NCBI RefSeq assembly: GCF_900156675.1
Contig: NZ_FTOH01000001.1
Coordinates: forward strand, 124,001 to 188,000
Reading direction: 5' to 3'
Length of the DNA: 64,000 bases
DNA from: Thalassolituus maritimus
GTDB lineage: Bacteria > Pseudomonadota > Gammaproteobacteria > Pseudomonadales > Oceanobacteraceae
Position numbers and translations under genes: made by a program. Below are positions 15,772-30,336 of the stretch, piece by piece. The first letter of the stretch is position 1, and every line of letters begins with the position of its first letter. The notes beneath the pieces are model-generated. The model ran no database searches, was not told the DNA's origin, and saw nothing but the letters and a program-made list of their open reading frames with translations.

Positions 15772-15831
15772 TATCCGGGCTTTTACAGAAATCCCGGATT
15801 GCATGTGTGAGACAAATTGAAGACTACAAAC

Positions 15832-16023: not shown

Positions 16024-16044
16024 GTCAGTATCGAACGAAAGAAG

Positions 16045-16189: not shown

Positions 16190-16339
16190 ATGCTTGAGGT
16201 TAGGAGTCACTTGTTAGAAGAGGTTTTGAACGGTGCTATTCACCGGCGCTTGTTCACGAAGCCTCTTGGCCCATACTCTGAAAGTTGGTATCGGTCGGAA
16301 TGCTTACGGGAGGAGAGTGGCAAGTATTTCTGGAAGTAA
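16190..16339 (+). CDS. Possible small protein downstream of alpA
   Basis: A 49-codon frame opens with ATG 16190 and ends TAA 16339. Its composition is protein-like (LLEEVLNGAIHRRLF, ESWYRSECLREESG). AGGGAG lies 12 bases before the ATG, which is longer than ideal. Small frames after alpA are usual in satellites, but no family is recognised. The remaining sequence from 16024 to 16473 shows no other gene. Confidence 0.3.
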   Translation: MLEVRSHLLEEVLNGAIHRRLFTKPLGPYSESWYRSECLREESGKYFWK

Positions 16340-16473
16340 ATCGCCTAGTGGTGTAAGCGAGATGTATGGCTCCATACTTTGTTCTTATGAGTCATCACAA
16401 GTGCATCTCTCACTTTAAGTGAGTATTGATTTGCTACGAAAGATCAGGAAATAGTAGTTGCTAGTGCTTAGCA

Positions 16474-17949
16474 TTAGGCCGTAGGGGGGAGGGGCGGCTC
16501 AAAAAATGCCCACATACAGCTTATTACGACAAAGAGTAAGAATAATATGATGGACCAAATTGCTGTATAAGAAATCTTCTTTTCCTGCAGGTAGGTCATG
16601 TCAGATAGGTGTTGTTCATCGTTGTCTAATATTCGGGATAAATCATCTTTGTTTAGAAGTTCCTTGTATCTATTTTTAAATTTACTATAGCTCAAGTCAA
16701 ATCTCTTGATTTCGGTATTTATTTCGTATATCGAGAAAAATAAAACGAAAGTCGAAATTACAAGAAGCATTATAAAGATAATGTATACGTCATCGCTAAC
16801 TACTTTGGTTTCCTTTTGAGCAAGCAACCGAATTAGAATGACAGAAATAAAAAAAGAAACTAAAGAGAAAATGCTATTTTTAAGATAGCTAGCAAGCCCA
16901 TTTGCGATGTTCATTGCTTTTAATGAAGAGTCATGGATGTGATCTGAAAGCTTGTTCTTAATTTCTATGTACTGTTTTATATTTTCTTTAAGATAAATTT
17001 GATACCCTGATAAGATAGACTTCATTGTTCCAGAGCGAAGAAATATAAGGCTGTCATCCTGTGAATGTATGGAAATTATATTTCGAGCCAATCCTATTTT
17101 ATCTGAAGTATCGCCCTCGCTATAAATCCACTTATATATTTGGTGGTACTCTTTTACTATAGCACCTGCTATTTCTTCTTGTTGGTCGATTTCTGTCTGT
17201 AAATATTTGTAGCCATTTAATGCAACTATTAAGTTGGATGAGTTGGCATCCAATCTGGAGTAATCGCAAATGAAAGTTAAAAGACAGTAGAATTTGATTT
17301 TTCTAAAAAAGCATTTTAGTGGATCTGCTTCTATGGATTCGATAAAGTCAAAGTCTTCAGGGATTAATGAAAATTGAGACTCATTTGAAAAGTGGCACGA
17401 AGTTCGTCTCTTCGATAAAATATTGTTTCGCCGTGTGGTGTTGGAACCAATTCTTAATCTTCTTATGCTCTCATCGGAATTCGGAATGATTAACTGATCA
17501 TAATTTAATATTACTGTGTTTATTTTTTCTAGAGATTTGTAAATTCCACCGTCGTCCCAAAAGTCGACCAAAGCTTTTGGGTTTATGATGAAGAGCTCCC
17601 TTTGATCAGTTTTCTTGTCTAGTTTTATTGTTATATTGGTTACGTTTTCTTCCGATTCTTGATCTGATAATATATCTGAAAGAAGCGATATTTTTTCTTC
17701 TATGGTCTCATTGCACCCTGAATAAAATATCTTTTCGTTTATAATATCTGAGTCTATTGATATGGTCGTGGATTTTGCTATTGGAAGTAAGCTTCGCAGC
17801 TTGCTCTCTAATACGGATTTATCTGGAGATTTAAGTGTTGTGATTTGATATGAGTAGATATATTCAGCAGTTGTTTCCCTTTCGGTTATATTGCTTGGTT
17901 CGCCAAATAAAGCTGCAATAACTTCGAAAAAAGAACGACTTGATTTCAT
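16474..17949 (-). CDS. Membrane-anchored protein of a two-gene operon (candidate effector)
   Basis: A 491-residue protein. About 330 soluble N-terminal residues are followed by three C-terminal transmembrane helices: IFSLVSFFISVILIRLL, YIIFIMLLVISTFVLFF and IWSIILFLLFVVISCMW. A charged segment of about 60 residues separates the second and third. The start overlaps the stop of the upstream gene by ATGA, so the two are made together. Membrane-inserted proteins coupled to a soluble partner are a common layout for abortive-infection systems, where the membrane protein disrupts the envelope. This is inference from architecture only; no named family was recognised. Confidence 0.5.
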   Translation of the reverse strand: MKSSRSFFEVIAALFGEPSNITERETTAEYIYSYQITTLKSPDKSVLESKLRSLLPIAKSTTISIDSDIINEKIFYSGCNETIEEKISLLSDILSDQESEENVTNITIKLDKKTDQRELFIINPKALVDFWDDGGIYKSLEKINTVILNYDQLIIPNSDESIRRLRIGSNTTRRNNILSKRRTSCHFSNESQFSLIPEDFDFIESIEADPLKCFFRKIKFYCLLTFICDYSRLDANSSNLIVALNGYKYLQTEIDQQEEIAGAIVKEYHQIYKWIYSEGDTSDKIGLARNIISIHSQDDSLIFLRSGTMKSILSGYQIYLKENIKQYIEIKNKLSDHIHDSSLKAMNIANGLASYLKNSIFSLVSFFISVILIRLLAQKETKVVSDDVYIIFIMLLVISTFVLFFSIYEINTEIKRFDLSYSKFKNRYKELLNKDDLSRILDNDEQHLSDMTYLQEKKISYTAIWSIILFLLFVVISCMWAFFEPPLPPTA

Positions 17950-19004
17950 TCTTTTCTCGCTCCGTCAGACTGACTATTTTCTGTGGCGGAATCATTATTG
18001 GATGATTTAAATTCTTCGTATCCAGTGTCGGAAAATATTTTAATGAACTTTCTGCCTTCTGAATCCTCTCCTGCTTTAATAATATCCTTGAGATTTTCGA
18101 TTTCCCCATTGAATCGCAATTCCAAGTTCTCTCTCAATGGTATGTTCTTTTTAATTCTGCCTTTAATGTGGCTGATAGATATGTCAAATTGAGAATCAAA
18201 ATTCTTCTTTTCTGGGAGGTTTAGAAGATCTTCGCTTAGCGATTTAATATCAATGCTGGAGTTGTCAGGAGTGTAATGCAATAGGGTGTTTTCAATTAGT
18301 CCTGTAATTGAAAATCCTTCGTTGTTTCTAAAGTAACACAGTACAGAGTTTCGAATATTCCAATAGTCTATCTTTGATTTTTTTTTGACTTTTCTAGTTA
18401 ATAAGTTATCTATTTCCATGAAGGCGGATTTGGTATTTTTTTGTGAGCTATTTAACTCCACGAGCTCTAAAAATGAATCCCACCAATACGTTGAAATCGT
18501 AGAGTTTGTATCTCTAACTTTTACAATATGATCTTCTTCATTAAACTCTATAATGGCAACTTTTTGAGTTCTTTTTTCCCAAGGCAAACCGCTTTCTTTC
18601 TTTAGGCTCTCTCCCAGATAGTCATCGTAATCAACTTTTGTGATAACGTATAGAGTGGCATTGTCATTCTCTAAGTATATTTGAAGTAACCCTCCTCTGC
18701 GGAGATCAGTTAAGTTCTCAACTTGCTTCTGGGCTTTTTCTTCAGCTTCATAAAGTCTATTTGATATTCTAGTAGCAGAATCCTCCCATTCGTTGTCTGA
18801 TAGGGAGTTAATGATGTTATGTACTTCTGTGGTATTGGATCTAAATCTGTAATATTTATACGCGCTAGATTTTGAAACATCATCTAATAACTTGGAAACA
18901 AAATCAGTAGCGTCCGTGTCACCATTGATCATGGTTGTCTTGGAGTCAAATTTCTTAGTTATATCAATTTTATGAACCGAAGCCCACTTGATTATAGGAT
19001 TCAA
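17946..19004 (-). CDS. Soluble partner protein of the two-gene operon (candidate sensor)
   Basis: A 352-residue soluble protein, family not recognised. It contains a beta-rich middle (LLQIYLENDNATLYVITKVD, VAIIEFNEEDHIVKVRD) and a lysine-rich stretch TRKVKKKSKIDYW near residue 210. A conserved-looking C-terminal block IKGRIKKNIPLRENLELRF precedes an acidic/serine tail. The middle recalls NA37-like or DUF4868-like folds in style, but the match is too weak to call. It is first in the operon and coupled by ATGA overlap to the membrane protein. Confidence 0.5.
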   Translation of the reverse strand: MNPIIKWASVHKIDITKKFDSKTTMINGDTDATDFVSKLLDDVSKSSAYKYYRFRSNTTEVHNIINSLSDNEWEDSATRISNRLYEAEEKAQKQVENLTDLRRGGLLQIYLENDNATLYVITKVDYDDYLGESLKKESGLPWEKRTQKVAIIEFNEEDHIVKVRDTNSTISTYWWDSFLELVELNSSQKNTKSAFMEIDNLLTRKVKKKSKIDYWNIRNSVLCYFRNNEGFSITGLIENTLLHYTPDNSSIDIKSLSEDLLNLPEKKNFDSQFDISISHIKGRIKKNIPLRENLELRFNGEIENLKDIIKAGEDSEGRKFIKIFSDTGYEEFKSSNNDSATENSQSDGARKE

Positions 19005-19145
19005 AGTAATTTCCTTATTAGATGCTGCCTAACTCAGTGAAAAATAACATATTGTTGTACCTGTCTCAAACTATATTTACATGAGAATGCAAAGTTTTGA
19101 TGATTTGGTTACTGGTGTACAATCAACCCCATTTTATTGCTTGTG

Positions 19146-20168
19146 CTAATTATGGTGGTTTAATAGCTTTTCATATTTTTGGGGTAGTAAGCTATACTGT
19201 CCCCAGCTATTAACGAAGCATCTAGGTATGTTACCTTCCCACTCCAAACTTGAGTGAAATAATATGTGTCTTCCTATGGAGTTTGTATTTATATGCTTCC
19301 TTTTGTCAAATTCTGGCCATGAATATAATTTGAATTCATTAAACCCTTCAATTTTAATATAGATTATGTTGCGCTTGTTTAATTTTTTATAGCCGGATAT
19401 TTTTCCAAAGAACAATCGGTTTTTGCTATCCGTATTCTCGGTTATTCTGTTTATATTGAATAACATATCAGACAGTAGCATTGGGAACTGAGAATCTGGA
19501 AGGTGGTAACCTTTATGGAGGTTTTTATCAAACTCTTTGCATAAGGCAGTTACGCTAGATATTTTGCTGGGAAGGTTGAACTCTCTCCCCCTATGCCTAC
19601 CAATTGCTACCTCTGTTTCAGGCCCATTAGCATCCTCAATGGCAGTTTGATTAAATTCTCCAGTTTCGTCGATATCATCGTGATTCGATGGAGGATGAGC
19701 CATCCAATCTGAAACAATTACTAGAGTTTGATCTTCTATTGATTTGAATGCTTCTTCTTCATTTTTATAAGAAAGACCTTCCATTCTCTTAGTTTTCAAT
19801 CGACATGATATCTTCGAATATGTTGGTTTATGTTTGAAATGAGCTGTTCTGCTGTTTGTGGAGACTGAGCTAGTGTCGGGAGATCTTGATAGCGGAGTGG
19901 CGCAGACCGGGCAGAATATCATTCCCTTCATCGAAAGATCAAACTCCTCTGGGGTTACTTGAATGCCATTTTCATGGAGTAATTCTTCATTATCCTTTCC
20001 ATATATCCATTTTTTCTTCATGTGAAGAGCGTAGGCTATTCGATGATTACTTTCTTCCATGATCTCTCCCAATGTTCTATTGTAATTTAGTACCGCATTT
20101 GTTTGGATTGGCGATAAACTGCGATTCCACCAGCCCGGGTATTCACGGTATAAGGTTTCTAACAACAT
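19146..20168 (-). CDS. CoiA-like zinc-binding hypothetical protein
   Basis: A 340-residue protein. Near residues 85-125 it shows FCPVCATPL, then TAHFKHKP and SCRLK: the Cys-x2-Cys ... HFxH ... Cys pattern of the N-terminal zinc region in CoiA-like proteins. The following acidic linker (HDDIDETGEFNQ) and the C-terminal beta-rich part (IIYIKIEGFNEFKLY) are not recognised. It stands alone between the two-gene operon and the toxin-immunity pair. Competence CoiA is linked to DNA uptake and recombination; here a nuclease-related or defence role is only a guess. Confidence 0.45.
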   Translation of the reverse strand: MLLETLYREYPGWWNRSLSPIQTNAVLNYNRTLGEIMEESNHRIAYALHMKKKWIYGKDNEELLHENGIQVTPEEFDLSMKGMIFCPVCATPLSRSPDTSSVSTNSRTAHFKHKPTYSKISCRLKTKRMEGLSYKNEEEAFKSIEDQTLVIVSDWMAHPPSNHDDIDETGEFNQTAIEDANGPETEVAIGRHRGREFNLPSKISSVTALCKEFDKNLHKGYHLPDSQFPMLLSDMLFNINRITENTDSKNRLFFGKISGYKKLNKRNIIYIKIEGFNEFKLYSWPEFDKRKHINTNSIGRHILFHSSLEWEGNIPRCFVNSWGQYSLLPQKYEKLLNHHN

Positions 20169-20295
20169 GTTAGAAAAACCGTAGTGGCATTAGCTACGAA
20201 TTCTATGCACATGTCGGTATTTTCGCTGTGTAGCCCGTTCTTTATATCTAGCCTTGGGCGATGTTAACTATTATTGGCAGCAACCAAGTAAGTGG

Positions 20296-20868
20296 TTAAA
20301 CTAACGTGACCTCCTGGAATGTCACGCCGGTGAGCTTCCCAGATGCGACTGCGCAGAAAAAGCTACCTAGTACTCCTTCATCGGTGCTCTGATCATCAAC
20401 ACAGAAGGTACTGGTGTAGTTGTCTCCTTTAATTTTAAAGAGACCAGTAGCGGGAAGCTTCTCGGCCTTCAGTACGATATTCTTAAGACCAAACTTTATG
20501 CCGCCTTCGTTGTATTCGTACTCTGATTTCTCAGTATCCAGAGCATCGTCAGCTTTTTGCAGGATGTTCAAGCAGTACCATTGCTCGTCGTTTACTGTGA
20601 ATGGCAGAAGCTCGCCAGACTCTTCCAATATTTCCACCATGTACTCTGCGACTGCCTCTTTAAATGCGAATGTACTCATGCCAATCCATGCGATATCGGG
20701 AATGGGCTCTTCTTTCTTGTCACTGAGGTAGGCAGTGAAGTGCAGTGGTAGCTTTCCAGCAAGTTCATTGCATTTGAATTCCCAGAAATCAGAGTCATAT
20801 ACCTCATCTTCTGGATACATGAAGCGGTAAGACGTGTCGGGCTTCACTATGTAGACTTTCATATTCAA
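20296..20868 (-). CDS. Imm11/DUF1629-like immunity protein
   Basis: A 190-residue protein with the layout of Imm11/DUF1629 immunity proteins: VYDSDFWEF, PDIAWIGMSTFAFKEAV, then LLPFTVNDEQWYCLNI and a final SGKLTGVTFQEV. Its start overlaps the stop of the AHH-nuclease gene by ATGA. This is the toxin-then-immunity order, and tight coupling ensures that inhibitor is made with toxin. A start two codons downstream is possible. Assignment by motif style plus adjacency. Confidence 0.65.
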   Translation of the reverse strand: MNMKVYIVKPDTSYRFMYPEDEVYDSDFWEFKCNELAGKLPLHFTAYLSDKKEEPIPDIAWIGMSTFAFKEAVAEYMVEILEESGELLPFTVNDEQWYCLNILQKADDALDTEKSEYEYNEGGIKFGLKNIVLKAEKLPATGLFKIKGDNYTSTFCVDDQSTDEGVLGSFFCAVASGKLTGVTFQEVTLV

Positions 20869-21545
20869 TACTCCTGTTTTCCTTCCCTAAGATTTCTAGC
20901 GATCAGGCGCAGTGCTAGCCGACATTCCAGTTCGCTGGTTGCAGTTCCTAACATGCTGGTGACGTTGGCGTAGTACTGCTCAGTATGCATCTCAGCATGA
21001 TTGATTGCTTTGGGCATCTTTTCGTGGGGGATAAATCGGGAATTACGCGGTAAGTAGATCCCGTTATCGGGGTCATCAATACGTATCCTGAAGTTTGCCA
21101 AGATGCGTCTTGCTGCGCGAGCTTCAGGGTGAGTGCCGCTCACAATGGCGTGTGCCGCAACGTTTATGGGGCGAGTTTCACCCGTAGCCTTGATATGTCT
21201 CGATAGACGAGAAGACTTATGCTCTTCTGACAAAAATTGCCTACGAGTCATCCCCTTAGCTTCTGCTTGGTATTCAGCCAGGGCGGTCAGAGCCTGTACC
21301 GTACTCCGAACCATGATTTTGTTGTATAGCTTGGCGGCAAGGCGGGTTATCTCTTGAGCAGATAGGTGTTTGTTTCGCTTCTCTAGCTGCTCCTGGGCTG
21401 ATGCTGCTACGTGCTCCCCAGCCATTTTTTTCATTTCGTAGTACCCGATCCTTCGATCAGTTTCACGAATGACTTCGATCAGGCCACTCAGTAGCTCCTG
21501 GGGTTGAACCTCAAAAACTTCAATTTCTGGGATACTTCCTTGCAT
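20865..21545 (-). CDS. AHH-family nuclease toxin
   Basis: A 226-residue protein whose C-terminal half has the AHH signature: AAHAIVSGTHPEARAARRIL (about 129-148), RIDDPDNGIYLPRN and NHAEMHTEQYYANV. AHH nucleases of the HNH/Endonuclease VII superfamily use these histidines for DNA or RNA cleavage. Here the first motif reads HAIV instead of the usual HHIV, so one histidine is changed. The N-terminal about 125 residues are helical. It lacks a secretion trunk (no Rhs, PAAR or signal), so it could be a cytoplasmic toxin or an orphan tip. The immunity-like gene follows with overlap. Confidence 0.65.
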   Translation of the reverse strand: MQGSIPEIEVFEVQPQELLSGLIEVIRETDRRIGYYEMKKMAGEHVAASAQEQLEKRNKHLSAQEITRLAAKLYNKIMVRSTVQALTALAEYQAEAKGMTRRQFLSEEHKSSRLSRHIKATGETRPINVAAHAIVSGTHPEARAARRILANFRIRIDDPDNGIYLPRNSRFIPHEKMPKAINHAEMHTEQYYANVTSMLGTATSELECRLALRLIARNLREGKQEY

Positions 21546-21633
21546 TGCTTTGCTCCATAACCGTTCTTACGGGCAGTTCCGTTCGTGAGATTATGAGGGG
21601 CTTACAATGAAAAGTTAAGAAAAACACAGATCA

Positions 21634-21663
21634 CCCCACTCACTACCTTTGTAGTGAGTGGGG
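21634..21663 (-). terminator. Hairpin downstream of the DUF932 gene
   Basis: Thirteen perfect pairs (CCCCACTCACTAC ... GTAGTGAGTGGGG) with a four-base loop, ten bases past the stop at 21673 on the minus strand. The U-tract is delayed (TGATCTGTGTTTTT), so efficiency is uncertain, but position and strength favour a terminator. Confidence 0.55.
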
Positions 21664-21672
21664 AGAGCTTGT

Positions 21673-22629
21673 TCAAGCCACCAGCGCCAAAGCAGCGTCC
21701 AGGGCCTTTTGCTTTGTTACCGCACCGTGTCCGAACCAAGCCGAATCTATGCGGTGTTCGCTGCTGATGGCGCGTTTCTCGTGATCTACGAATTCAGTAA
21801 TTGAGTTCAGTAGGCCGTAGGCGGTATTTCGAGCAGAGTCCAGGCGCGAGCCGCGTCCATTACCTTCAAAGAGGCTGATGGCCTTGGCGATAGACTTTCC
21901 TCCTGCCCCATCTACGCCGATATGTTGCGGCGGAATAAGAACCTGGTGATAGAATTCTCGGGCTTCCTTCAAGGATACTTTCCGCTCACTCAGTGTCTTC
22001 ATTTGGTACATGAAGTTATCCCAGGAAGATACAGAGATTCCCAGTTTTCGTTTTACCTCCTCAGCATTGAAAACTGTGCTGTGTGGGATCTTAACTGCGC
22101 TCTCTTTATCTTGAGACAGTGATATAGCCAGTGTGTTGTTGCATACGACGCGTACGCTTGTGAATTGGGCTGTGGTGGCCATAGAGCCATCGCACGCGGT
22201 AGCGAGCAGCACATAGCCATTGGTGACGTCGCCACCTTTGAGGCTGGTGGACTGCCCAGTACGGGCCAGAGCCCAGATCTTTTTGCCGCCTTTCAATACC
22301 CCCGCTGTTTCGAGCTCGAACCCTGAGATTTCTGTCAGGTCGCGGTAGAACTCCAGAATCTCTCGGGGTTGCACAACGTTGTATCGTTGGCCTACTACGG
22401 ATAGCGGTGCGCCGGTATCAGAGCGGTAGAGTACTGATTTCTCATCAAACGGCAGTAGACTAGGATCTTCTGCTCCGGTATCGAACATTACGGGGCTGCG
22501 ATTTATTTCCCAGTTAAGGCCTGCTTTGTTAGCCCATACCTCTAGGGGCATACCTCGTTCAAGCCGAGATCCGAGTTCATGCCACGGAACTTCACCAACG
22601 TATGCCATGTTTTCAACTAAGTGTGCCAT
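21673..22629 (-). CDS. DUF932 (phage/plasmid TIGR03299-like) protein
   Basis: A 318-residue protein starting MAHLVENMAYVGEVPWHELG, the diagnostic opening of DUF932. It continues with GLNWEINRSPVMF, VVQPREILEFYRDL and VVCNNTLAISL. DUF932 proteins are common on plasmids and phages, but their biochemical role is not known. GAGGTAACAAAC precedes ATG 22629; a longer frame to 22731 lacks such a site and overlaps the next gene. It marks plasmid-derived material in the island. Confidence 0.8.
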   Translation of the reverse strand: MAHLVENMAYVGEVPWHELGSRLERGMPLEVWANKAGLNWEINRSPVMFDTGAEDPSLLPFDEKSVLYRSDTGAPLSVVGQRYNVVQPREILEFYRDLTEISGFELETAGVLKGGKKIWALARTGQSTSLKGGDVTNGYVLLATACDGSMATTAQFTSVRVVCNNTLAISLSQDKESAVKIPHSTVFNAEEVKRKLGISVSSWDNFMYQMKTLSERKVSLKEAREFYHQVLIPPQHIGVDGAGGKSIAKAISLFEGNGRGSRLDSARNTAYGLLNSITEFVDHEKRAISSEHRIDSAWFGHGAVTKQKALDAALALVA

Positions 22630-22663
22630 GTTTGTTACCTCTAAATTGGTCTGAAAGAACGGC

Positions 22664-22981
22664 TCAGAAATGCGGGTTGAATTCCTGTTCGCACTCGGTG
22701 CACACGCAGTTGTTGAGTACTTTTTCGTCAATTACCTTGCCGACGGTCGCACCTGTTGCGGCACCTGTGGCACAACCCACCAGTGCACCGATAAGTGCGC
22801 CTCCCAGGCTTCCTGCTGGGCCCGCGTAAGCACCAACGCGCATTCCTACCTGAGAGCCTTTTAAGGCTCCAGTAAGAGCGCTGGTGGCTCCTACCGTGGC
22901 CCCAATGGCTCCGCCGATCTTGCGGCCTGTATCTCTGGTGGTAAAAGAATCTGAGTTACATTTCGGACAGCGAATAGTCAT
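22664..22981 (-). CDS. Zinc-ribbon protein with glycine-zipper membrane segments
   Basis: A 105-residue protein. The N-terminus MTIRCPKCNSDSF carries a CxxC knuckle and the C-terminus has CVCTEC; together they could bind one zinc. Between them lies a Gly/Ala-rich region (GGAIGATVGATSALTGAL, AGSLGGALIGALVGC) of glycine-zipper type, likely one or two membrane helices. It lies 34 bases upstream of the DUF932 start and is probably cotranscribed. Function unknown. Confidence 0.6.
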   Translation of the reverse strand: MTIRCPKCNSDSFTTRDTGRKIGGAIGATVGATSALTGALKGSQVGMRVGAYAGPAGSLGGALIGALVGCATGAATGATVGKVIDEKVLNNCVCTECEQEFNPHF

Positions 22982-23081
22982 CTGATTTCCTCATCTTTGC
23001 GGTGTTGAACGGATTCATTTCCTGATTCAAATAGGCAATGTGGGAATGAGATTCTCTAGAACACGGAAAGTCAGATACGCA

Positions 23082-23113
23082 AAGCCCCGCCCTGATTTCT
23101 CAGAGCGGGGCTT
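23082..23113 (-). terminator. Hairpin downstream of the lipoprotein gene
   Basis: AAGCCCCGC ... GCGGGGCTT with an inner CTGA/TCAG pair, 18 bases past the lipoprotein stop on the minus strand. Only a short U-run (TTTGC) follows, so it is a probable but not ideal terminator. Confidence 0.5.
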
Positions 23114-23130
23114 ATACGGGGGCGGGAAGG

Positions 23131-23394
23131 TTAGAGTGTATCCAGGCAGTATTCGGTGGCTGGTACTATTCGCTCGTCCAGTTCCTGGCGACCCTTTGAA
23201 GAATAGAAGAGCTGTATCAACTCATCTGTCGCTTTGTCTCTGGATATCTGTTCAAACGTGCATAAGCAGAGACGGTGTGGGGCTCCAGATGCCATGCAGC
23301 CGGACAGGAATTTACCTTTAACCTTCGAGTACTCATTTGAGCACGAGATCAGAAAGAGTACTGATAGTAATAAAATCGCACGGTAGCCGAACAT
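23131..23394 (-). CDS. Small lipoprotein
   Basis: An 87-residue protein with a type II signal peptide: FGYRAILLLSVLFLISC, lipobox LISC with Cys18 as the lipidated residue. The mature part has four further cysteines (SGC, RLCLC, EYC) that may pair as disulfides in the periplasm. It sits four bases after the stop of the upstream membrane protein gene, in the same operon. Family not recognised. Confidence 0.6.
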   Translation of the reverse strand: MFGYRAILLLSVLFLISCSNEYSKVKGKFLSGCMASGAPHRLCLCTFEQISRDKATDELIQLFYSSKGRQELDERIVPATEYCLDTL

Positions 23395-23398
23395 TCTT

Positions 23399-23752
23399 TT
23401 AGCCCAGTACCAACGCAGCCCCTAAGCCGACACCGACCATACAGCCGATAGTCTGTGGCCCAATCAGCCAGAAAATCTTTTGCCAGACCATTGCTCCCAT
23501 TCCGCTCGTGAAAACAAAGTCTGGAGCTGCAAACTTTCTGAACGCGTCCCCGATCATTGCACCAACCAAGCCGAGAGGCGCAGCAACCAAAAAGGCGACA
23601 CACTTCGCCAGAAAACTAGCGCCCAGTACGATTGGGGAGTTGTTAAATATCAGAGCCAAGGCAGCGAGTATTGCAGACGCTACGCCCCAGATTATGGCCG
23701 CTTTTTTGAGTTCAACGTTTCCTGTTGATCCAGCACCTTCAAAGTCGTTCAT
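23399..23752 (-). CDS. Small membrane protein
   Basis: A 117-residue protein with about three hydrophobic helices (AAIIWGVASAILAALALIF; ASFLAKCVAFLVAAPLGLVG; IGCMVGVGLGAALVL). It is followed after four bases by the lipoprotein gene, which suggests an envelope pair. No family recognised. The upstream gap to the XRE gene holds a palindrome that could regulate both genes divergently. Confidence 0.5.
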   Translation of the reverse strand: MNDFEGAGSTGNVELKKAAIIWGVASAILAALALIFNNSPIVLGASFLAKCVAFLVAAPLGLVGAMIGDAFRKFAAPDFVFTSGMGAMVWQKIFWLIGPQTIGCMVGVGLGAALVLG

Positions 23753-23813
23753 CCATACATTCCTTTAGTTTTGTTTACTCTAAGGTCAAAGCGGCCTTTT
23801 TGAATATCATAAT

Positions 23814-23829
23814 GACCACTATAGAGGTC
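23814..23829. promoter_or_regulatory. Palindrome GACCACTATAGAGGTC, candidate operator
   Basis: A 16-base palindrome with two mismatched positions (14 of 16 symmetric), in the divergent gap between the membrane protein (minus) and the XRE gene (plus). Its shape recalls C-boxes bound by small XRE controller proteins. It is a candidate autoregulatory site. Confidence 0.4.
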
Positions 23830-23891
23830 TAAATGTAGTTTATATCGCGTGGAATGTACATAGGAGCGTACGCACCATTTCAACCTGTATT

Positions 23892-24161
23892 ATGGGTGGG
23901 AGAGAGTGTGTGGGAATTGTCGAGGTAGAAGACCCAAGTCTGGCTTTTGGTAAGGCCATAAAACTGCGTCGCGTTGAGCTGGATCTCAGCCAAGAGGAGT
24001 TGGCGTATCGGGCTGATCTGGCTCGCTCTTTTGTCTCTGGTGTCGAGCGTGGTGCTGCCAAGGCAACCACTACGTCTGTGTGGAAGCTGGCAGTAGCTCT
24101 TGAGTGTAAGCCGTCAGATCTTTGGATTTCGGCAGAGAGGATGTTAGGCGGGGTTCGGTAA
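23892..24161 (+). CDS. XRE-family helix-turn-helix regulator
   Basis: An 89-residue protein with a complete HTH_3 domain: LRRVELDLSQEELAYRADLA, RSFVSGVERGA and LWKLAVALECKPSDLW-like spacing (here VWKLAVALECKPSDLW). Size and sequence style resemble restriction-modification controller (C) proteins, but no methylase or endonuclease gene is adjacent. ATG 23892 is annotated; a GTG at 23910 is also possible because GGGAGA lies just before it. The palindrome at 23814-23829 is a likely binding site. Confidence 0.75.
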   Translation: MGGRECVGIVEVEDPSLAFGKAIKLRRVELDLSQEELAYRADLARSFVSGVERGAAKATTTSVWKLAVALECKPSDLWISAERMLGGVR

Positions 24162-24383
24162 GCTTTACTCCTTGGATACTCTCAGTTTTGATCAAGTATG
24201 GTAGAACTAATGCTCTGTAGCGTGAGCATTAACCGAAGATCGCCACAGTATTATATTGGGTAGTAAAGAGCTAAGAGTGCCTTCGTTTTGAACTAGTGAG
24301 CTTAGCGAGTACATTGCTTAGCGGTTAGGCCTCTGCTTCTGCAACTACCAGGCCCCGGCAGGTACTAGCTTAAACTAGTTCTA

Positions 24384-25196
24384 TCAGGAGGGGGCTAAAC
24401 TATTACAAAGGCTTGCCGGTACTCCCACTGCGGTGCTATTAGCTGGGATATCATCAAGAACAACAGCCCCAGCTCCAATTACACTATTATCTCCAATAGA
24501 AATGTTACCAAGAATAGTAGAGCCAGCCCCTAGAACCACTCCAGAACCAATTTTAGGGTGTCTGTCACCGGAACCATTTCCTTTACCACCTAAAGTAACG
24601 GAATGAAGTATTGATACGTTATTGCCAATAGTACTGGTCTCCCCAATGACAATTGAGTGGGCGTGGTCAAGGAAAATTCCAGAACCGAACTTCGCAGCTG
24701 GGTGTATATCTACTGAGTAAACCTCCGAGCATTTTGACTGAAGGTAGTACGCAATGTCTGTAAATTTTGTGCTGTAGAGGTTGTGTGATAGTCGATGAAT
24801 CTGAATAGCTATAAAGCCTTTATAGAAAAGATAAGCCTGAGCAATCGACTTGCATGCAGGGTCTTTATTGAATGTGGCAAGGAGGTCACTACAAGCAAGC
24901 TCTCCCAAGGATTGATTATCCCTATATATATCAACTAAGAAATGATAAATATTATAGAACTCCTCTGGGGTGCTTGAGATTGCTTTAGAAATTTTCCAGG
25001 CTAGTGAAGTATCTAGGTTTTCATGGCTCAATATGTGATCTTGATATAGAAAACTAACGTAGCTAGACGAATTAAGTTTGTGGACACCTTCAGCGTACAA
25101 TGAACTCCAAACAGATTTTTTACAGAGTTCACCTTCCGGTTTTTTGTTACCAATATTAGATGCTGGTAACTTCGAATCTTTAGTGGAAATATCCAT
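24384..25196 (-). CDS. CysE-like serine O-acetyltransferase (hexapeptide-repeat family)
   Basis: A 270-residue protein. The C-terminal half is the left-handed beta-helix of CysE: VDIHPAAKFGSGIFLDHAHS, then VIGETSTIGNNVSILHSVTL, GGKGNGSGDRHPKIGSG and VVLGAGSTILGNI. The catalytic DH (in FLDHAH) and the GDRHP motif are present. CysE transfers acetyl from acetyl-CoA to L-serine; paralogues acylate other hydroxyls. The N-terminal about 40 residues are variable. ATG 25196 lies eight bases after the SDR stop. It is the last gene of the five-gene operon. The true acceptor may be a product of the upstream enzymes rather than serine. Confidence 0.75.
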   Translation of the reverse strand: MDISTKDSKLPASNIGNKKPEGELCKKSVWSSLYAEGVHKLNSSSYVSFLYQDHILSHENLDTSLAWKISKAISSTPEEFYNIYHFLVDIYRDNQSLGELACSDLLATFNKDPACKSIAQAYLFYKGFIAIQIHRLSHNLYSTKFTDIAYYLQSKCSEVYSVDIHPAAKFGSGIFLDHAHSIVIGETSTIGNNVSILHSVTLGGKGNGSGDRHPKIGSGVVLGAGSTILGNISIGDNSVIGAGAVVLDDIPANSTAVGVPASLCNSLAPS

Positions 25197-25204
25197 ATAA
25201 AATC

Positions 25205-25963
25205 TCACGAGGATGAAACTGACAGGCCTGCAAATGCCTGGCACACAGGCATTACTTCAATATTGTTAATGTTTACGTGGCTGGGAAGGGAGCAAACCCA
25301 GCATATTATACTTGCTACATCTTCAGCCAATAATGGTTTCTTATTTTCGTATAGGCTATCCGCTCGTACAGCATCACCTTTAAATCTGGTCAAGGAAAAA
25401 TTGGTCTTGGAGAGTCCTGGATCAATATTGGTTATCCTCACATTTGTACCAAGAAGATCAGATTTTAATCCTCTAGCAAAGCTTTGTATGAATGACTTTG
25501 TCGCTCCATACACATTCCCACCCGGGTAAGGCCAGTTTCCTGCCGTAGATCCCAAGCTAACAATATGTCCTTTATTCCTTTCGACCATTCTGGGAAGTAT
25601 AGCGTGAGTAAGGCGTAACATACCCATTACATTAGTTTGAATCATGACATTCCAATCCTCAAAATTTGAATTCTGAGTTGGGTCGAGACCAAGCGCTAAA
25701 CCAGCACTATTAATGAAGATATCTATATCTCTATATTTCTCCGGTAGGTCTGTCAGAAATTTATCGACTGAAGTAGTAGATGACACATCGAGCTCTGATA
25801 TATGAACATCGCACATGGGCCTGAGCTCACTAGCAAGTTTGTCCAGTAGATCAAGTCGTCTCGATGCCAGAATTAATCTGTAGCTTCCTTGCTTTGCAAA
25901 TACTCTTGCACATTCCTCTCCGAAGCCAGAGGAAGCACCCGTTATTAATACGATATTATCCAT
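25205..25963 (-). CDS. YdfG-like short-chain dehydrogenase
   Basis: A 252-residue SDR with TGASSGFG (residues 8-15, cofactor loop), NSAG, Ser in LGSTAG and the catalytic YGATK. An arginine pair follows the second strand (ASRR), which favours NADP. The C-terminus INNIEVMPVCQAFAGLSV matches the YdfG family, which oxidises serine, allo-threonine and 3-hydroxy acids at the beta position. The gene is fourth in the operon, 21 bases after the permease. A 3-hydroxy amino or organic acid intermediate is the likely substrate class. Confidence 0.8.
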   Translation of the reverse strand: MDNIVLITGASSGFGEECARVFAKQGSYRLILASRRLDLLDKLASELRPMCDVHISELDVSSTTSVDKFLTDLPEKYRDIDIFINSAGLALGLDPTQNSNFEDWNVMIQTNVMGMLRLTHAILPRMVERNKGHIVSLGSTAGNWPYPGGNVYGATKSFIQSFARGLKSDLLGTNVRITNIDPGLSKTNFSLTRFKGDAVRADSLYENKKPLLAEDVASIICWVCSLPSHVNINNIEVMPVCQAFAGLSVSSS

Positions 25964-25984
25964 TTAAATCATCCCTAAAATATA

Positions 25985-26749
25985 CTAAGTTATACTGTTG
26001 TCAAAAATAAGCTTTGCCGCCATTATAAAGCAAACTACCACTAGTACTGGTCGTACTATGCTGGCACCATTTTTAACCACCATTCTTGCTGCTACTGTCG
26101 CGCCTATTAGTTGACCCAATATCATTGCTATTCCAATGGTCCAATAAACTTCTCCAAACATAAGAAAGTAGCATAGGGAAGATATGTTGCTAGATAAATT
26201 AAGTACTTTAGCATTTGCGGTAGCTTTAGAAATTCCAAAGCCTGAGAAAAGTACTAATGCTAAAATCATGAAGCTACCAGTACCTGGCCCAAAAAAACCG
26301 TCATAGAACCCGAGGACAGGGCAAATTAGTACTGAAAAAGATATCATTCCTAGCCTTACTTTACCTTTAGTGTCGTCTACCTTTTTTGAAAACAGAAAGT
26401 ACAATCCTATAGATATTAATAGGAATGGTAATACCTTAATTAATTTATCATTTCCTATGTCAAGAACCAGCCAGGTTCCAAAAACAGCTCCAATAAAGGT
26501 AAATATCACTGGAATAACTACGTACTTTAAATCAATTTCACCAGCTCGAACAAAATGATACGTCGCAACTAATGAGCCAAACGTGGCTTGAAATTTGTTC
26601 GTTGCCAAAGCCGAGCTGGCAGGAACCCCAGCGAATATTAACGAAGGTATTGTTACTAGCCCACCTCCGCCAGCAATTGTGTCCACCCAGCCAGCAATAA
26701 TGGCAATGGCGAATAGAACTGCTAAAACATCCAATCCCGAAAAATCCAT
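25985..26749 (-). CDS. TSUP (TauE/SafE) family permease
   Basis: A 254-residue protein with about eight transmembrane helices and the TSUP hallmark GWVDTIAGGGGLVTIPSL near residue 18, plus ALATNKFQATFGS and the second-half repeat GFYDGFFGPGTGSFM. TSUP members move sulfite, sulfonates or other small organic anions, often outward. GAGGTATATAAT precedes ATG 26749; a longer frame upstream would overlap the oxygenase gene. Being inside a sulfur/amino-acid oxidation operon, it probably exports the end product or a by-product such as sulfite. Confidence 0.8.
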   Translation of the reverse strand: MDFSGLDVLAVLFAIAIIAGWVDTIAGGGGLVTIPSLIFAGVPASSALATNKFQATFGSLVATYHFVRAGEIDLKYVVIPVIFTFIGAVFGTWLVLDIGNDKLIKVLPFLLISIGLYFLFSKKVDDTKGKVRLGMISFSVLICPVLGFYDGFFGPGTGSFMILALVLFSGFGISKATANAKVLNLSSNISSLCYFLMFGEVYWTIGIAMILGQLIGATVAARMVVKNGASIVRPVLVVVCFIMAAKLIFDNSIT

Positions 26750-26762
26750 ATTATATACCTCG

Positions 26763-27602
26763 TTAAAAACCTGAGATGGCCATATTTTTATCGTTATATT
26801 TATCGCCGTACGCCTGCACGTCTCTCGAAATGTATATTCTTCGAAGTTCTCTACTTGAGTATCGAGCATCGCTAGTGATGGCTCTTCGTCCATGAAGGGA
26901 ACGGCGATTATTGATGACTAATATTTGGCCCGGCTTTGTGATAATTTCTTTTATATTTTCATCGGCCACTTTTTTTAATTTCTCTACCGCCACTCTATGC
27001 TCATTGGTGTCGCAAAGTATTCCATCAAATCGAACGTGGAGGTCGTACATCCCGTTGGCATTCCTAGAAATCATTGGTCTGCACTCTGAGTGGGAGTCAG
27101 TATGACCAAAATGTGGAGGAATTAGTACTTTGTAGGCTTTATCGCTAAGCAAGTCTATAGTACTCCCATCTAGTTTTTCGAGAATAGTGTCGATATTAGA
27201 TATGTTGGTGCCAATATTTTGCTCGTTAGATATACAAAGTAGGGCTATATAGTCGGGTGGAAGATGTACATATGGAAGTTCGGAATGTAAGTCGAATTTT
27301 ACACCGTTGTTATAAGCGGGGGTTGATGCCTTAGACTCCAAAGGGTTAGGCTTTATCTTCATGATGATATCGCCTTCTTTTTCATGCTTTATTGGTGAGC
27401 CTAGTAGGCTACATATTGACAAAAATGTTTCATCAATTTCAGAGTTCTTATCAATCGGAAATTCGTCTATTAGAAAGAAACTTTGGTTTAATATTTCTTC
27501 TATAATTATTCTTTTATTAGATGAGTAAATCGAATTTTTTAATTCGGTATAATTTATCAGGTTTTCTTTATTAAGGTTTCCTGATGTTATAAAAGTATTC
27601 AC
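26763..27602 (-). CDS. Fe(II)/2-oxoglutarate oxygenase, clavaminate synthase/AsnO-like
   Basis: A 279-residue protein with the HxE iron motif in KFDLHSELPY (about residues 102-111) and the distal histidine in GQILVINNRRSLHGRRA. A downstream arginine for 2-oxoglutarate lies in RELRRIYISRD. HxE instead of HxD is the mark of the clavaminate synthase / AsnO / VioC branch of the TauD superfamily, which hydroxylates free amino acids. It is second in the operon, 16 bases after the thiol dioxygenase gene. A beta-hydroxylated or desaturated amino acid product is the best prediction; substrate unknown. Confidence 0.75.
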   Translation of the reverse strand: MNTFITSGNLNKENLINYTELKNSIYSSNKRIIIEEILNQSFFLIDEFPIDKNSEIDETFLSICSLLGSPIKHEKEGDIIMKIKPNPLESKASTPAYNNGVKFDLHSELPYVHLPPDYIALLCISNEQNIGTNISNIDTILEKLDGSTIDLLSDKAYKVLIPPHFGHTDSHSECRPMISRNANGMYDLHVRFDGILCDTNEHRVAVEKLKKVADENIKEIITKPGQILVINNRRSLHGRRAITSDARYSSRELRRIYISRDVQAYGDKYNDKNMAISGF

Positions 27603-27618
27603 TATCCATAGCTCCTGA

Positions 27619-28107
27619 TTAAGGTTTGATGAGAGTTACTTCGTTGCTTTTAATTTCTGGTATATATAGGTGCAGAGAAATTGAGTCGGTGTTAGGGCTG
27701 GACAATCTATGGAGAAAATTCCCTCCTCCAATGTGACAGCTATCTTTGTGTGTGGATATGGTTTCAACTGATAGTCGTCTTGCTTCCCACTTTGAATAGC
27801 GTTCTTCAACTAACTCTCCAGCAACGCAAGTCATAAAGCAGTCGGATTTTGCATGGTCGTGAATTAACGATTTCTGTCCCTTTTTCCAGCAGATAAGAAC
27901 CAGCTCGAAAGAATCATTCCGATAGATCGAGTTTCTAGAATAGGATTCTTCGTCAATGAAGTAATGTAGATACTCTTCTTCATTACCAGTGATTATTTTT
28001 TTTGAGTTAATTAATATATCAAAGTAGCAGAGCTTTGAGTTGACACTGTCGGCTAACTTCCTTATTAGTCTGGATTTTTCCAAATCTAAACTTACATCTA
28101 TATCCAT
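27619..28107 (-). CDS. Cysteine dioxygenase-like thiol dioxygenase
   Basis: A 162-residue cupin with the type I cysteine dioxygenase motifs: YSRNSIY (Tyr and Arg that position the substrate carboxylate), LICWKKGQKSLIHDHAKSDC with the HDH iron ligands, FLHRL (third His) and SLHLYIPE with the conserved Tyr. It is shorter than most bacterial CDOs (about 200). The enzyme would oxidise cysteine, or a related thiol, to a sulfinate. AGGGA lies six bases before ATG 28107. First gene of the five-gene operon. Confidence 0.8.
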   Translation of the reverse strand: MDIDVSLDLEKSRLIRKLADSVNSKLCYFDILINSKKIITGNEEEYLHYFIDEESYSRNSIYRNDSFELVLICWKKGQKSLIHDHAKSDCFMTCVAGELVEERYSKWEARRLSVETISTHKDSCHIGGGNFLHRLSSPNTDSISLHLYIPEIKSNEVTLIKP

Positions 28108-28561
28108 ATATTTTCCCTATTAATTTATATTTATCCATTTATAAACTCGGGACGATAGTACTCTGCACTATGTTTGGTTGCGAGTTTATTTCTCTGAACG
28201 ATTAGTTCCGTTGGTAGAAACAGACCTATCGCGCCGCTAATTAGGAGTGCCTTTTTTTTATACTGCGTTAGTGCTAGTTTTATACGGGAAAAAGAAATTC
28301 AGGCGCCATTTACGTTTTATATGCTAGTTTCATGTGAGGCTGCATTTGGACTGCGCCGGTGATCAGGTTTAAAAATTATGACAGGCAGTATCGAATAGCA
28401 GAAACCGTTTAACTGTATATTATGCGCCAGGACACCCAAGGCTCCTTGCTGAATGAGCAATTGTTTCTGGGATGCAACGAAGTTAACTAAAATTTAATCT
28501 GACGGGCTCCAGCCTAAAACGCGTGGCTGTTAGTTCAGGTATAAATTTACTGAATTTATTC
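28108..28561. other. Intergenic region between sulfur operon and integrase
   Basis: 454 AT-rich bases without a convincing gene on either strand. The part next to 28107 must carry the promoter of the minus-strand five-gene operon (TTTATAAAT near 28140 is a possible -10 on that strand), but no clear -35 was found. The part next to 28561 is the 3' flank of the integrase gene. Confidence 0.5.
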
Positions 28562-29815
28562 CTACTTTATTATGCTATCAAAAACCTTTCTGCGTGAACC
28601 TCCACCAATCGCGGTGACATTAGTCGCGCATTTCTCAATATGTTCAGACCACCATTCCATCATGGTTGTGCGACGTTTGATGTAGTCACTGCGGTTATAT
28701 GCGGCTCTTACCTCGTTTTTGTCTACGTGAGCCAATGCGGCTTCGATTAAGTCATGATCGAAGCCTTGTTCGTTAAGTGTTGTACTTCCCAGAGCTCTTA
28801 AACCGTGAGCCACCAGCTTGTTTTCGTAGCCCATACGCTTAAGTGCCATATTGGCAGTTTGAGCGTTCATATGGCTTCTCGGGTTACGATCTGCGGGGAA
28901 TATATGCTCCCTGTGGCCACTGATAGGTTTTAGCTCTTCCAGGATGGCTAAGGCCTGAGGCGTAAGAGGAACGCTGTGTGTACGTCGCTTTTTCATTCGT
29001 TCAGCGGGAATAATCCAGAGCTTCTGATCGAAGTCGATTTCATCCCATTTGGCTCCAGCTGCCTCGCTTGGGCGAGCAAGCGTGTGCAGTTGCCATTCTA
29101 TTAAACAGCGAGTAACAAATTTAATGCTCGCACGACTAATGGAACGCATTAGAGCAGGGAGTTCTTCGGGTTTGATCGTTGGCGCATTTTGCTTTTTTGG
29201 TGCTGAAAATGCCTTTCCTATACCTGCTAGTGGGTTGTGTTGGATAACACCGGTATTCACTGCATAAATCATGATTTCATTTAGGCGCTGGCATAGCCTC
29301 TTAACTGTCTCCAGGTTGCCTTTTGCTGCGATGGGGCGGAGCACGGCAATTACCTTCTGCGCAGTTAGCTTACTAACTGGGTAGCCTCCCAGAGAAGGGA
29401 ACACATGAAGTGCCAGAGAGTTCCAGGTGCTGTTGGCATGGCCCTCTGTAATTGACGGGCGTTTAATATCAAGCCATTGCTCAGCAAGTTTCTCTAGTGT
29501 GTTGTTGAGTTCAGCAGTGCGCTCAGCGACTTGAGATTCGCGGTGATCCTTGGGATCAATATCCTGGGTAAGTAACTGGCGAGCTTCGTCCCGTTTGAGT
29601 CGGGCCTGAGCGAGCGAGACCTCAGGGTAATTACCAAATCCCAGGTTAGTGCGCTTTTTTGTGTATGGCTGTTGGTAGTTGAATATCCAGACTTTTGAGC
29701 CAGTGTTTTTGATTCGAAGGGCTAATCCGCGACCATCAGACAGGTTGTACTCCTTGTCCTTAGGCTTTGCGTTTCGGATTTCGACATCCGTCAGTGGGGT
29801 GGTTGTCTTGGCCAT
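28562..29815 (-). CDS. P4-type tyrosine integrase of the genomic island
   Basis: A 417-residue protein. It has the N-terminal DUF4102 arm-binding domain (LTDVEIRNAKPKDKEYNLSD, GRGLALRI), a SAM-like core-binding domain and a C-terminal catalytic domain. Active-site residues are Arg in LARPSEAAGAKW, HxxR in HGLRALGST, His in LAHVD and the nucleophile Tyr in AAYNRSDY. The start is 163 bases from the 3' end of ssrA, the usual target of such integrases. The upstream gap carries TGTTAC repeats that may be arm-type sites. It defines the right end of the island. Confidence 0.92.
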   Translation of the reverse strand: MAKTTTPLTDVEIRNAKPKDKEYNLSDGRGLALRIKNTGSKVWIFNYQQPYTKKRTNLGFGNYPEVSLAQARLKRDEARQLLTQDIDPKDHRESQVAERTAELNNTLEKLAEQWLDIKRPSITEGHANSTWNSLALHVFPSLGGYPVSKLTAQKVIAVLRPIAAKGNLETVKRLCQRLNEIMIYAVNTGVIQHNPLAGIGKAFSAPKKQNAPTIKPEELPALMRSISRASIKFVTRCLIEWQLHTLARPSEAAGAKWDEIDFDQKLWIIPAERMKKRRTHSVPLTPQALAILEELKPISGHREHIFPADRNPRSHMNAQTANMALKRMGYENKLVAHGLRALGSTTLNEQGFDHDLIEAALAHVDKNEVRAAYNRSDYIKRRTTMMEWWSEHIEKCATNVTAIGGGSRRKVFDSIIK

Positions 29816-29816
29816 T

Positions 29817-29883
29817 GTAACACTGGAATCCTGTTCTTCAGTCGGTGTTACATTGAATGTTACATCGGATCTCGGATGTTACC
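29817..29883. repeat. TGTTAC repeats upstream of the integrase
   Basis: TGTTAC occurs in direct orientation at 29846, 29858 and 29877, and inverted (GTAACA) at 29817. Short repeats next to the int start and the att end are typical of integrase arm-type binding sites and may also autoregulate int. Confidence 0.45.
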
Positions 29884-29909
29884 AAACCTCTGTGGACGTT
29901 AGTGGATAC

Positions 29910-29945
29910 AAAAAAGGCCTTAAACCGCGTGGTTTAAGGCCTTTT
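29910..29945 (-). terminator. ssrA: ssrA intrinsic terminator
   Basis: GGCCTTAAACC-gcgt-GGTTTAAGGCC, eleven perfect pairs, flanked by an A-run that reads as a U-tract on the minus strand, 33 bases beyond the tmRNA 3' end. Because the island inserted at the ssrA 3' end, this terminator may now be island-supplied. Confidence 0.8.
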
Positions 29946-29977
29946 CGGAAGTCTTTGGACTTGCCTGGACTTCAATT

Positions 29978-30336
29978 TGGTGGAGATGGCGGGATTTGAA
30001 CCCGCGTCCGCCAATCCTCCACTAGAGGATCTACATGCTTAGTCTTCTCTATTGATTTAGTTCGTCACGGGCCGAGAGACAGGCCGTTCGGAACGAGCTG
30101 GATTACGTTTAGTCCTTTGGCTCCCAGCAAAGCCTCCGGACGATCCTGTAGGGCTGCGCCCTCGTCCCCCGGTTACAGGAACCCGGGTTCGGAGGTAAGC
30201 GGGGCTATTAGGCCGCTAGTGCGTAAGATTCGTCGTTTGCGAATATTTAAATGTACAACGTTTATTTACGAGATCGTCGTACGCTCTCGGCATGCACCCA
30301 TAGCTTTGTAATCAACGTCGAATCCAGATCATCCCC
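29978..30336 (-). ncRNA. ssrA: tmRNA (ssrA)
   Basis: About 359 nt on the minus strand. The 5' end reads GGGGATGATCTGGATTCGAC and the 3' end GGGTTCAAATCCCGCC followed by ATCTCCACCA. These form the alanyl-tRNA-like acceptor and T arms, with CCA encoded. The tag frame lies at 30240-30208: resume codon GCA, peptide ANDESYALAA, stop TAA. tmRNA and SmpB rescue stalled ribosomes and mark the nascent chain for proteolysis. smpB lies directly upstream. The 3' end is the presumed attachment site of the island. Confidence 0.93.

Follow-up and report, generated by a model that had tools for sequence, protein, structure and literature searches.

Introduction

In dermatophytes, sulfite is secreted by the Cdo1-Ssu1 system; a cdo1/cdo2-tauE counterpart has been proposed for Streptomyces sp. 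SCUT-3, and cdo and tauE are induced in a feather-degrading Streptomyces, according to the passages of two papers that deal with them (PMC10655438, PMC7181669). TauE is also named as a sulfite exporter in a passage on C2-sulfonate metabolism (PMC5373536). Here we describe a five-gene operon found in a stretch of 64,000 nucleotides of Thalassolituus maritimus (contig NZ_FTOH01000001.1, positions 124,001 to 188,000), the whole of which is called the window below. The genes code, in this order, for a type I cysteine dioxygenase (CDO), an Fe(II)/2-oxoglutarate (2OG) oxygenase (OXY), a TauE/SafE-family permease (TSUP), a short-chain dehydrogenase (SDR) and a serine O-acetyltransferase (SAT). The operon resembles the above systems in that a CDO appears to be coupled to the export of an oxidised sulfur anion, in the bacterial case through a TauE-type exporter. 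It differs from Cdo1-Ssu1 in what accompanies the dioxygenase: in the dermatophyte model, as outlined in those passages, an aspartate aminotransferase acts after CDO, whereas here a 2OG oxygenase adjoins CDO, and an SDR and a SAT belong to the same mobile operon. We propose, with a probability of roughly 40%, that the operon is a mobile pathway in which an oxidised sulfur anion derived from cysteine sulfinate would be exported by TSUP.

Other described routes share parts of this design. The mercaptosuccinate dioxygenase route of Variovorax and Advenella has a CDO homologue, a sulfinate that releases sulfite and possibly export by TauE, but its sulfinate breaks down spontaneously, and the passages on that route mention neither an oxygenase nor an SDR or a SAT (PMC5373536). 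In isethionate formation by IsfD and IsfE, an SDR of the same group stands with a putative exporter; that route, however, starts from taurine with an aminotransferase, and the part of the paper concerned with it describes neither a CDO nor a 2OG oxygenase (PMC6616044). The SbzM/SbzJ sulfonamide route also relies on a cupin dioxygenase that acts on cysteine and leads to a small sulfur product; there, as far as the passages on the two enzymes go, the cupin is decarboxylating and an aldehyde dehydrogenase takes part, whereas the operon has a canonical CDO_I protein and an oxygenase (PMC6331615). An SbzM-like route was rejected for the operon, as there is no aldehyde dehydrogenase among the five proteins and the CDO is canonical.

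The searches of open-licence PMC papers, where absence is a weak argument, brought up no mobile operon in which an oxygenase takes the place of the aminotransferase and is accompanied by an SDR and a SAT. While a CDO with sulfite export is already known, the oxygenase beside the CDO and the five-gene set are new with respect to these papers. The enzyme families of the operon are ordinary, but their combination is unusual and rarely seen.

The operon and its conserved core

The five genes occupy positions 24384 to 28107 of the minus strand as intact open reading frames (ORFs), with gaps of 16, 13, 21 and 8 bases down the operon. Both this layout and the family assignments had been put forward in an earlier reading of the bare sequence (the original prediction); they were borne out by the ORFs and their starts and by the Pfam matches, respectively (Table 1). 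A purine-rich stretch is clear 5' of most of the starts and weak 5' of that of SAT. The program-made ORF list reaches 26893 for TSUP and 25244 for SAT, because in-frame starts exist further upstream. The genes have a GC content of 37-42% (32-39% at third codon positions), as compared to 52% GC in the window to the right of position 30500. Consensus promoters and terminators were not more frequent than in shuffled sequences (11 against 12.8 expected and 2 against 2.9, respectively), so that the operon promoter was not located. As predicted, Pfam detected no ligase, non-ribosomal peptide synthetase (NRPS) or pyridoxal phosphate (PLP) enzyme family among the five operon proteins; neither a carrier-protein transferase nor a PaaK-like ligase was detected among them, nor was an aminotransferase family, for which the search covered these proteins and not the host genome elsewhere.

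The order CDO, OXY, TSUP recurs in a metagenome-assembled genome of Bermanella (G039), where the three genes are consecutive and their products, whose families were confirmed by Pfam, are 25%, 35% and 44% identical to those of the operon. Neither an SDR nor a SAT gene lies beside this locus, and we therefore regard CDO-OXY-TSUP as the core. A scan of 84,980 species genomes with two peptide patterns, which is not exhaustive, returned one locus, in Bermanella sp. isolate MOW.maxbin2.006. Among eight genomes compared, CDO was present in G000 and G039 only and was not found in four other genomes of the same genus; in a class sample it occurred in 11 of 369 genomes, this genome included. OXY matches were found in 5 of 93 genomes at E 1e-3, 6 of 369 and 2 of 44 at E 1e-12, and 5 of 390 and 5 of 398 at E 1e-15, the sets being overlapping and each count including this genome. 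In a single-sequence OXY search only G039 was strong besides this genome (E 3.5e-41), the rest being 2.9e-6 or weaker. A two-row profile matched G107 as well (3.5e-39), on whose 4.6-kb contig there is no match to CDO or TSUP.

A search of 26 loci (16 taken as OXY-like and 10 CDO loci) for matches to the five operon proteins (E <= 0.01) showed CDO, OXY and TSUP together only at the Bermanella locus, although several of the loci are cut off by the end of a contig and a strongly diverged TSUP might have gone unnoticed. At L077, another of the OXY-like loci, there is a match to SDR (E 1.8e-48) at a distance of about 2.5 kb. No match to TSUP, OXY, SDR or SAT lies near any of 11 CDO places outside this genome, ten of which were covered as wide stretches and the eleventh as a short locus only; three of the ten wide stretches are not matched by the window CDO at E <= 0.01, though they were found by Pfam's CDO model. 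In two of the five CDO loci with ORFs examined, a PLP decarboxylase gene directly precedes CDO (PF00282, E 4.4e-85 and 7.5e-70). Loci that combine CDO with a PLP decarboxylase (L054, L059) resemble the operon in a CDO-led, two-step oxidation of cysteine; they differ from it in that the decarboxylase, which we take to be of the hypotaurine/taurine type, stands where the operon has OXY, and in that no match to the window TSUP lies beside them. In viral contigs 73 stretches fitted the search pattern and none was a relative, phage records gave one weak TauD match only, and the plasmid search for CDO returned five records, all of which fall short of 60% identity and of 80% query coverage.

The original prediction would have been refuted if the five genes never co-occurred elsewhere. 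Three of them, CDO, OXY and TSUP, do stand together in Bermanella in the same order, but the full set was seen only here, so that SDR and SAT look accessory and do not seem to belong to the core. One could argue that cargo genes without a common pathway were assembled by chance on a mobile element, the full set being present in one genome and the core in two. That the same order is found in another genus at 25-44% identity, and that the two oxygenases have residues in common (see below), makes this highly improbable. The Bermanella core, which stands without SDR and SAT, would also agree with the relief of a cysteine or sulfur overload, in which excess thiol would leave the cell as an oxidised anion by way of CDO, OXY and TSUP, and SDR and SAT would be passengers without a part in it. 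A thiol dioxygenase with disposal of sulfite is a described route, at least in the passages quoted in the Introduction, but in the operon SDR and SAT are spaced and oriented as members, and an extra SAT would worsen an overload, so we consider this explanation improbable. A CysE-like SAT that would raise the cysteine supply argues for making a product and not for detoxifying cysteine.

Active-site residues of the dioxygenase and the oxygenase

According to the alignment to solved cysteine dioxygenases, CDO has all the iron ligands (H83, H85 and H133), as had been noticed originally, and R58, C90, Y148, S144 and H146 are also kept, so that the canonical site is complete. We take R58, C90 and Y148 to correspond to R60, C93 and Y157 of mammalian CDO, and S144 and H146 to Ser153 and His155 (mammalian numbering). 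CDO is a canonical type I cysteine dioxygenase, which is predicted to convert cysteine to cysteine sulfinate.

The nearest solved structures of OXY include VioC, clavaminate synthase 1, AsnO and lysine 3-hydroxylase, enzymes whose substrates are free amino acids and with which OXY shares the sequence family, the HxE...H triad and the arginine pair for 2OG and the substrate carboxylate. The metal triad H106/E108/H237 is kept in the alignments (the HxE motif of the original prediction is H106-S-E108), and R251 and R255 are kept in the alignment to VioC; the former is presumably the arginine of 2OG and the latter the one that holds the substrate carboxylate. Because the triad and both arginines are kept, an alpha-amino-acid substrate is likely. 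The best-known members of the branch, which act on free arginine, asparagine or lysine, are C3 hydroxylases.

OXY differs from the VioC-type enzymes in its length (279 residues as opposed to solved chains of at least 324) and in its side-chain pocket, where residues are replaced. In the alignment to VioC, D222 and D270, which we assume to belong to the three acidic residues that hold the guanidinium group, correspond to H164 and I195, i.e. two of the three are gone, and an arginine or guanidino substrate was rejected on this ground. H164 is part of a motif, IPPHFxHxD, whose two histidines H164 and H167 are present in both CDO-linked OXY proteins and in none of the 12 other relatives aligned (the three weakest, L020-L022, were left out). 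This pattern is the trace that a shared, different substrate would leave. The scores of OXY lie below the cut-offs of the models for GntD (74.7 against 345 bits), VioC (50.1 against 418.6) and clavaminate synthase (45.3 against 450). An AlphaFold model based on a two-row alignment had a mean predicted local distance difference test score of 36.5 and was not used. On a Pantoea stewartii plasmid (L006 4771-6759), a gene for a tRNA-ligase-related protein forms a two-gene unit with an adjoining OXY-like TauD gene (25.8% identity).

The permease, the dehydrogenase and the acetyltransferase

TSUP matches PF01925 with 159.6 bits (cut-off 32.6) along profile positions 1-237 of 237; it is a member of the TauE/TSUP family and is predicted to export sulfite or a sulfonate. 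Classical SDR proteins have the motifs TGxxxGxG (nucleotide) and YxxxK, and the TGASSGFG and YGATK found in the translation of SDR fit this description. Its closest model is YdfG (NF007829), the score of 308.3 bits being under the equivalog cut-off of 411, which makes YdfG a near relative only. YdfG oxidises serine to aminomalonate semialdehyde. Among solved structures, SDR matches 3asu, a YdfG-like chain, with E 4.2e-78 and the sulfoacetaldehyde reductase 6ixj with E 8.3e-72.

The latter match raises the possibility that the operon forms a sulfonate: cysteine sulfinate would give sulfoacetaldehyde or a three-carbon sulfo-aldehyde, which SDR would reduce as IsfD does, and TSUP would export isethionate or a sulfolactate-like compound as proposed for IsfE. 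IsfD and the putative exporter IsfE are a known pair in the passage on them (PMC6616044). On the other hand, SDR scores better against 3asu and its closest model is YdfG, the operon has no taurine aminotransferase and no PLP decarboxylase, the latter being present in two of the five other CDO loci examined, and Bermanella has no SDR beside the core; we thus find the formation of a sulfonate hard to favour.

SAT scores 213.5 bits against the cysE model TIGR01172, over the cut-off of 210.65. The C-terminal tail of CysE serves the binding of cysteine synthase; in SAT only 9 residues follow GVPA as compared to 32 in Klebsiella CysE. The possibility that SDR and SAT are duplicated host genes was rejected: the next SDR of this genome (E <= 1e-20) is 32% identical over part of its length, and the host's own SAT is 38% identical to that of the operon. 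In all seven related genomes, Bermanella included, SDR proteins are at most 34% identical among the ten matches listed.

The proposed pathway and its main alternative

The pathway that we propose is pieced together from family membership, gene linkage and residues, and both its product and its substrates are predicted. By analogy, a SAT without the tail should be less feedback-controlled. SAT would therefore form O-acetylserine under less feedback control and, via the cysteine synthase of the host, more cysteine would be made, which CDO would oxidise to cysteine sulfinate. OXY would then oxidise C3 of this compound to give a 1-hydroxy-sulfinate; as C3 carries the sulfur in cysteine sulfinate, its hydroxylation should labilise the C-S bond. 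TauD labilises the C-S bond of taurine by hydroxylation, and, like the products of TauD, the 1-hydroxy-sulfinate would fall apart, in this case yielding aminomalonate semialdehyde and an oxidised sulfur ion, in the end sulfite. TSUP would export the sulfur anion, while the YdfG-like SDR, run in reverse, would reduce aminomalonate semialdehyde to serine for reuse by SAT. In this way SDR and SAT would turn the core into a serine-cysteine cycle; as SAT uses serine, a single cycle can accommodate all five genes. The original idea that a small oxidised sulfur or amino-acid product is made and exported thus gains support as a prediction.

More specific forms of the proposal are less probable. Sulfite is our first candidate for the exported anion, with the carbon recycled as serine by SDR and SAT, but we consider this version doubtful. 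In the most specific form, OXY would be the founding member of a group of Fe/2OG oxygenases which, through hydroxylation at C3, break the C-S bond in cysteine sulfinate as TauD does in taurine, and the operon would be a transferable serine-cysteine cycle by which assimilated sulfide ends up as exported sulfite (or first-formed sulfoxylate) and serine is regenerated; this we judge unlikely.

Several observations weigh against the pathway. Recycling of serine is not required, because in Bermanella neither SDR nor SAT accompanies the core, and the one SDR match listed for the rest of that genome is not close (34%). Releasing sulfite through a cycle that consumes acetyl-CoA, 2OG and NADPH would be expensive, and no marker specific for sulfite was found in this analysis. 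The Bermanella CDO keeps the His, Arg, Cys and Tyr residues, but Thr and Asn replace Ser153 and His155. In a tree of 14 OXY-like proteins, 11 others group together (92/96) and both CDO-linked OXY proteins fall outside, without being joined to each other with good support. The distant matches of OXY also include a lysine 4-hydroxylase, i.e. not every relative is a C3 oxygenase. In addition, alignments read by eye show that OXY keeps an aspartate, Asp193, at the place of AsnO D241 and VioC D268, and AsnO D241N is listed in a passage of PMC9968057 as the form that takes aspartate; a substrate with an acidic side chain is therefore disfavoured for OXY, unless H164 and H167 offset Asp193. Finally, SAT reads DHAHS at the catalytic histidine where Klebsiella CysE reads DHATG and other SAT proteins compared have x-Gly, and a SAT with this His-Ser variant may have another substrate.

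The DHAH form is present in four of 12 other SAT proteins, namely those of Xenorhabdus pXT29, Vibrio coralliilyticus pOCN014, Klebsiella pC696_1 and a Paracoccus plasmid, and the short C-terminus is common to SAT and the first three. In a tree of 13 SAT proteins, SAT groups with the same three (95/95), although the branch is long (2.32) and the 13 are a selection that leaves out the Neisseria SAT proteins, which are among the 11 plasmid records under E 1e-55 and are slightly more identical to SAT (47.7% identity over 79%). The best-scoring relatives in the plasmid collection include those of pC696_1 and pOCN014, both inside NRPS clusters whose annotated genes also code for a TauD oxygenase, a class V PLP enzyme, a phosphopantetheinyl transferase and a protein of the phenylacetate-CoA ligase family. 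The operon differs from this type of cluster in having no NRPS, carrier-protein transferase or PaaK-like ligase. The Paracoccus gene, which has the same His-Ser motif, adjoins phage-tail-like and ATP synthase genes, and the DHAH motif alone is therefore not a proof of specialised metabolism.

Some of these relationships would fit an antimetabolite as the product of the operon. In that case OXY would form cysteine sulfinate hydroxylated at C3, as a stable compound analogous to hydroxyaspartate, or some small amino acid of this kind, the SAT variant would O-acetylate the new hydroxyl or SDR would trim it, and the compound exported by TSUP would inhibit the aspartate or cysteine enzymes of competitors. 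The grouping of SAT with the pXT29 protein and with the SAT proteins of clusters that include a TauD-family oxygenase is in line with this, as is the fact that the operon shares its mobilizable element with a defence gene; in addition, the OXY, SDR and SAT families act at C3 or the C3 hydroxyl of amino acids. Against it, the TauD proteins of the NRPS clusters gave no match to OXY at E <= 1e-5, a 1-hydroxy-sulfinate is chemically labile, there is neither an NRPS nor a ligase family among the five, and no gene for resistance or immunity was recognised; the long branch, the unrelated setting of the Paracoccus gene and the slightly more identical Neisseria proteins also weaken the argument from SAT. 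An antimetabolite thus seems to us a tentative alternative, and on the whole a rather unlikely one.

The SAT relatives have further neighbours. The NRPS clusters of Vibrio coralliilyticus (L090 2028-12291) and Klebsiella pneumoniae (L091 15039-24091) are related and have in common, by annotation, TauD, the PaaK-like ligase, the class V PLP enzyme, SAT and the phosphopantetheinyl transferase. Next to the Vibrio cluster lies a gene for cysteinyl-tRNA synthetase, an arrangement that would be in line with self-resistance if the product inhibited this enzyme. On Xenorhabdus pXT29 (L080 16428-28790), a methionine--tRNA ligase gene, possibly a resistant target, heads a small cluster with an adenylation-domain gene. 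In Azospirillum (L085, L088), the SAT genes directly follow genes for a family 2A encapsulin shell and its cysteine desulfurase cargo.

The carrying mobile element

The operon is carried by a mobilizable element with defence and metabolic cargo, whose integrase gene sits between the operon and the gene of the transfer-messenger RNA (tmRNA). The repeat CTCCACCAAAT is present at both ends of the element, at contig positions 115741 and 153975, which gives the element a length of about 38.2 kb and puts its left end 8.26 kb beyond the edge of the window. The carriage on an island stated by the original prediction is evident from the empty site of two relatives of the same genus. In G008 the tmRNA flank (window position 29976 and above) is followed by 124 bases and then by sequence that in this genome occupies contig positions up to 115625, and in G001 by 30 bases and then by sequence that here reaches up to 115717; G003 shows the same pattern more weakly, and G006 and G007 gave no left-flank match. 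Genes for a relaxase, a coupling protein, a serine recombinase and a NikA/MobC-like protein are part of the element, and with its terminal integrase, direct repeats, relaxase and empty site in relatives it has the features of an integrated mobilizable element.

The defence gene codes for a Lamassu LmuA protein (1158-2249, minus strand, E 6.3e-131). An ORF across the left edge of the window (L052 9411-11000, minus strand) resembles an LmuA partner by eye and has a CPVC hook motif. Elsewhere on the minus strand there are genes for a protein with an AHH-type nuclease domain (20865-21545, E 1e-12) and for a DUF932 protein (21673-22731, E 4.5e-67). DUF932 proteins are common cargo of mobile elements. 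Four ORFs of low GC content downstream of the AHH gene on the same strand (16474-20868) have no Pfam match at E <= 0.001; this region is possibly toxin/immunity or other cargo.

Table 1. Positions of the operon genes and of the mobile element in the window.
Feature	Position	Strand	Basis
CDO, type I cysteine dioxygenase, 162 aa, first gene	27619..28107	-	PF05995 (CDO_I) E 3.9e-18; alignment to solved CDOs
OXY, Fe(II)/2OG oxygenase, VioC/AsnO/clavaminate synthase branch, 279 aa, GTG start at 27602	26763..27602	-	PF02668 (TauD) E 3.8e-15
TSUP, TauE/SafE-family permease, 254 aa, ATG start at 26749	25985..26749	-	PF01925 (TauE) E 1.4e-46; 44% identity to Bermanella copy
SDR, YdfG/sulfoacetaldehyde-reductase-like short-chain dehydrogenase, 252 aa, ATG start at 25963	25205..25963	-	PF00106 (adh_short) E 3.3e-45
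SAT, CysE-type serine O-acetyltransferase without C-terminal tail, 270 aa, ATG start at 25196	24384..25196	-	TIGR01172; SATase_N E 1.5e-18
Tyrosine integrase of the element	28562..29815	-	PF00589, PF13356, PF22022
tmRNA gene, insertion site	29978..30336	-	ARAGORN; 3' flank near-contiguous with the island's far side in two relatives
11-bp boundary repeat CTCCACCAAAT, right copy	29975..29985	-	Left copy at contig position 115741
Element part inside the window	1..29975	.	Empty site in two relatives; relaxase, coupling protein, recombinase

Significance

If the proposed pathway is true, the operon would provide bacteria with a PLP-free second step for cysteine sulfinate, the clavaminate/AsnO branch of oxygenases would gain a new class of substrate, and there would be a compact, mobile route for the secretion of a reactive sulfur compound by bacteria. 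Even if the product is a different one, CDO-OXY-TSUP is a unit that recurs and whose oxygenase bears a distinctive signature.

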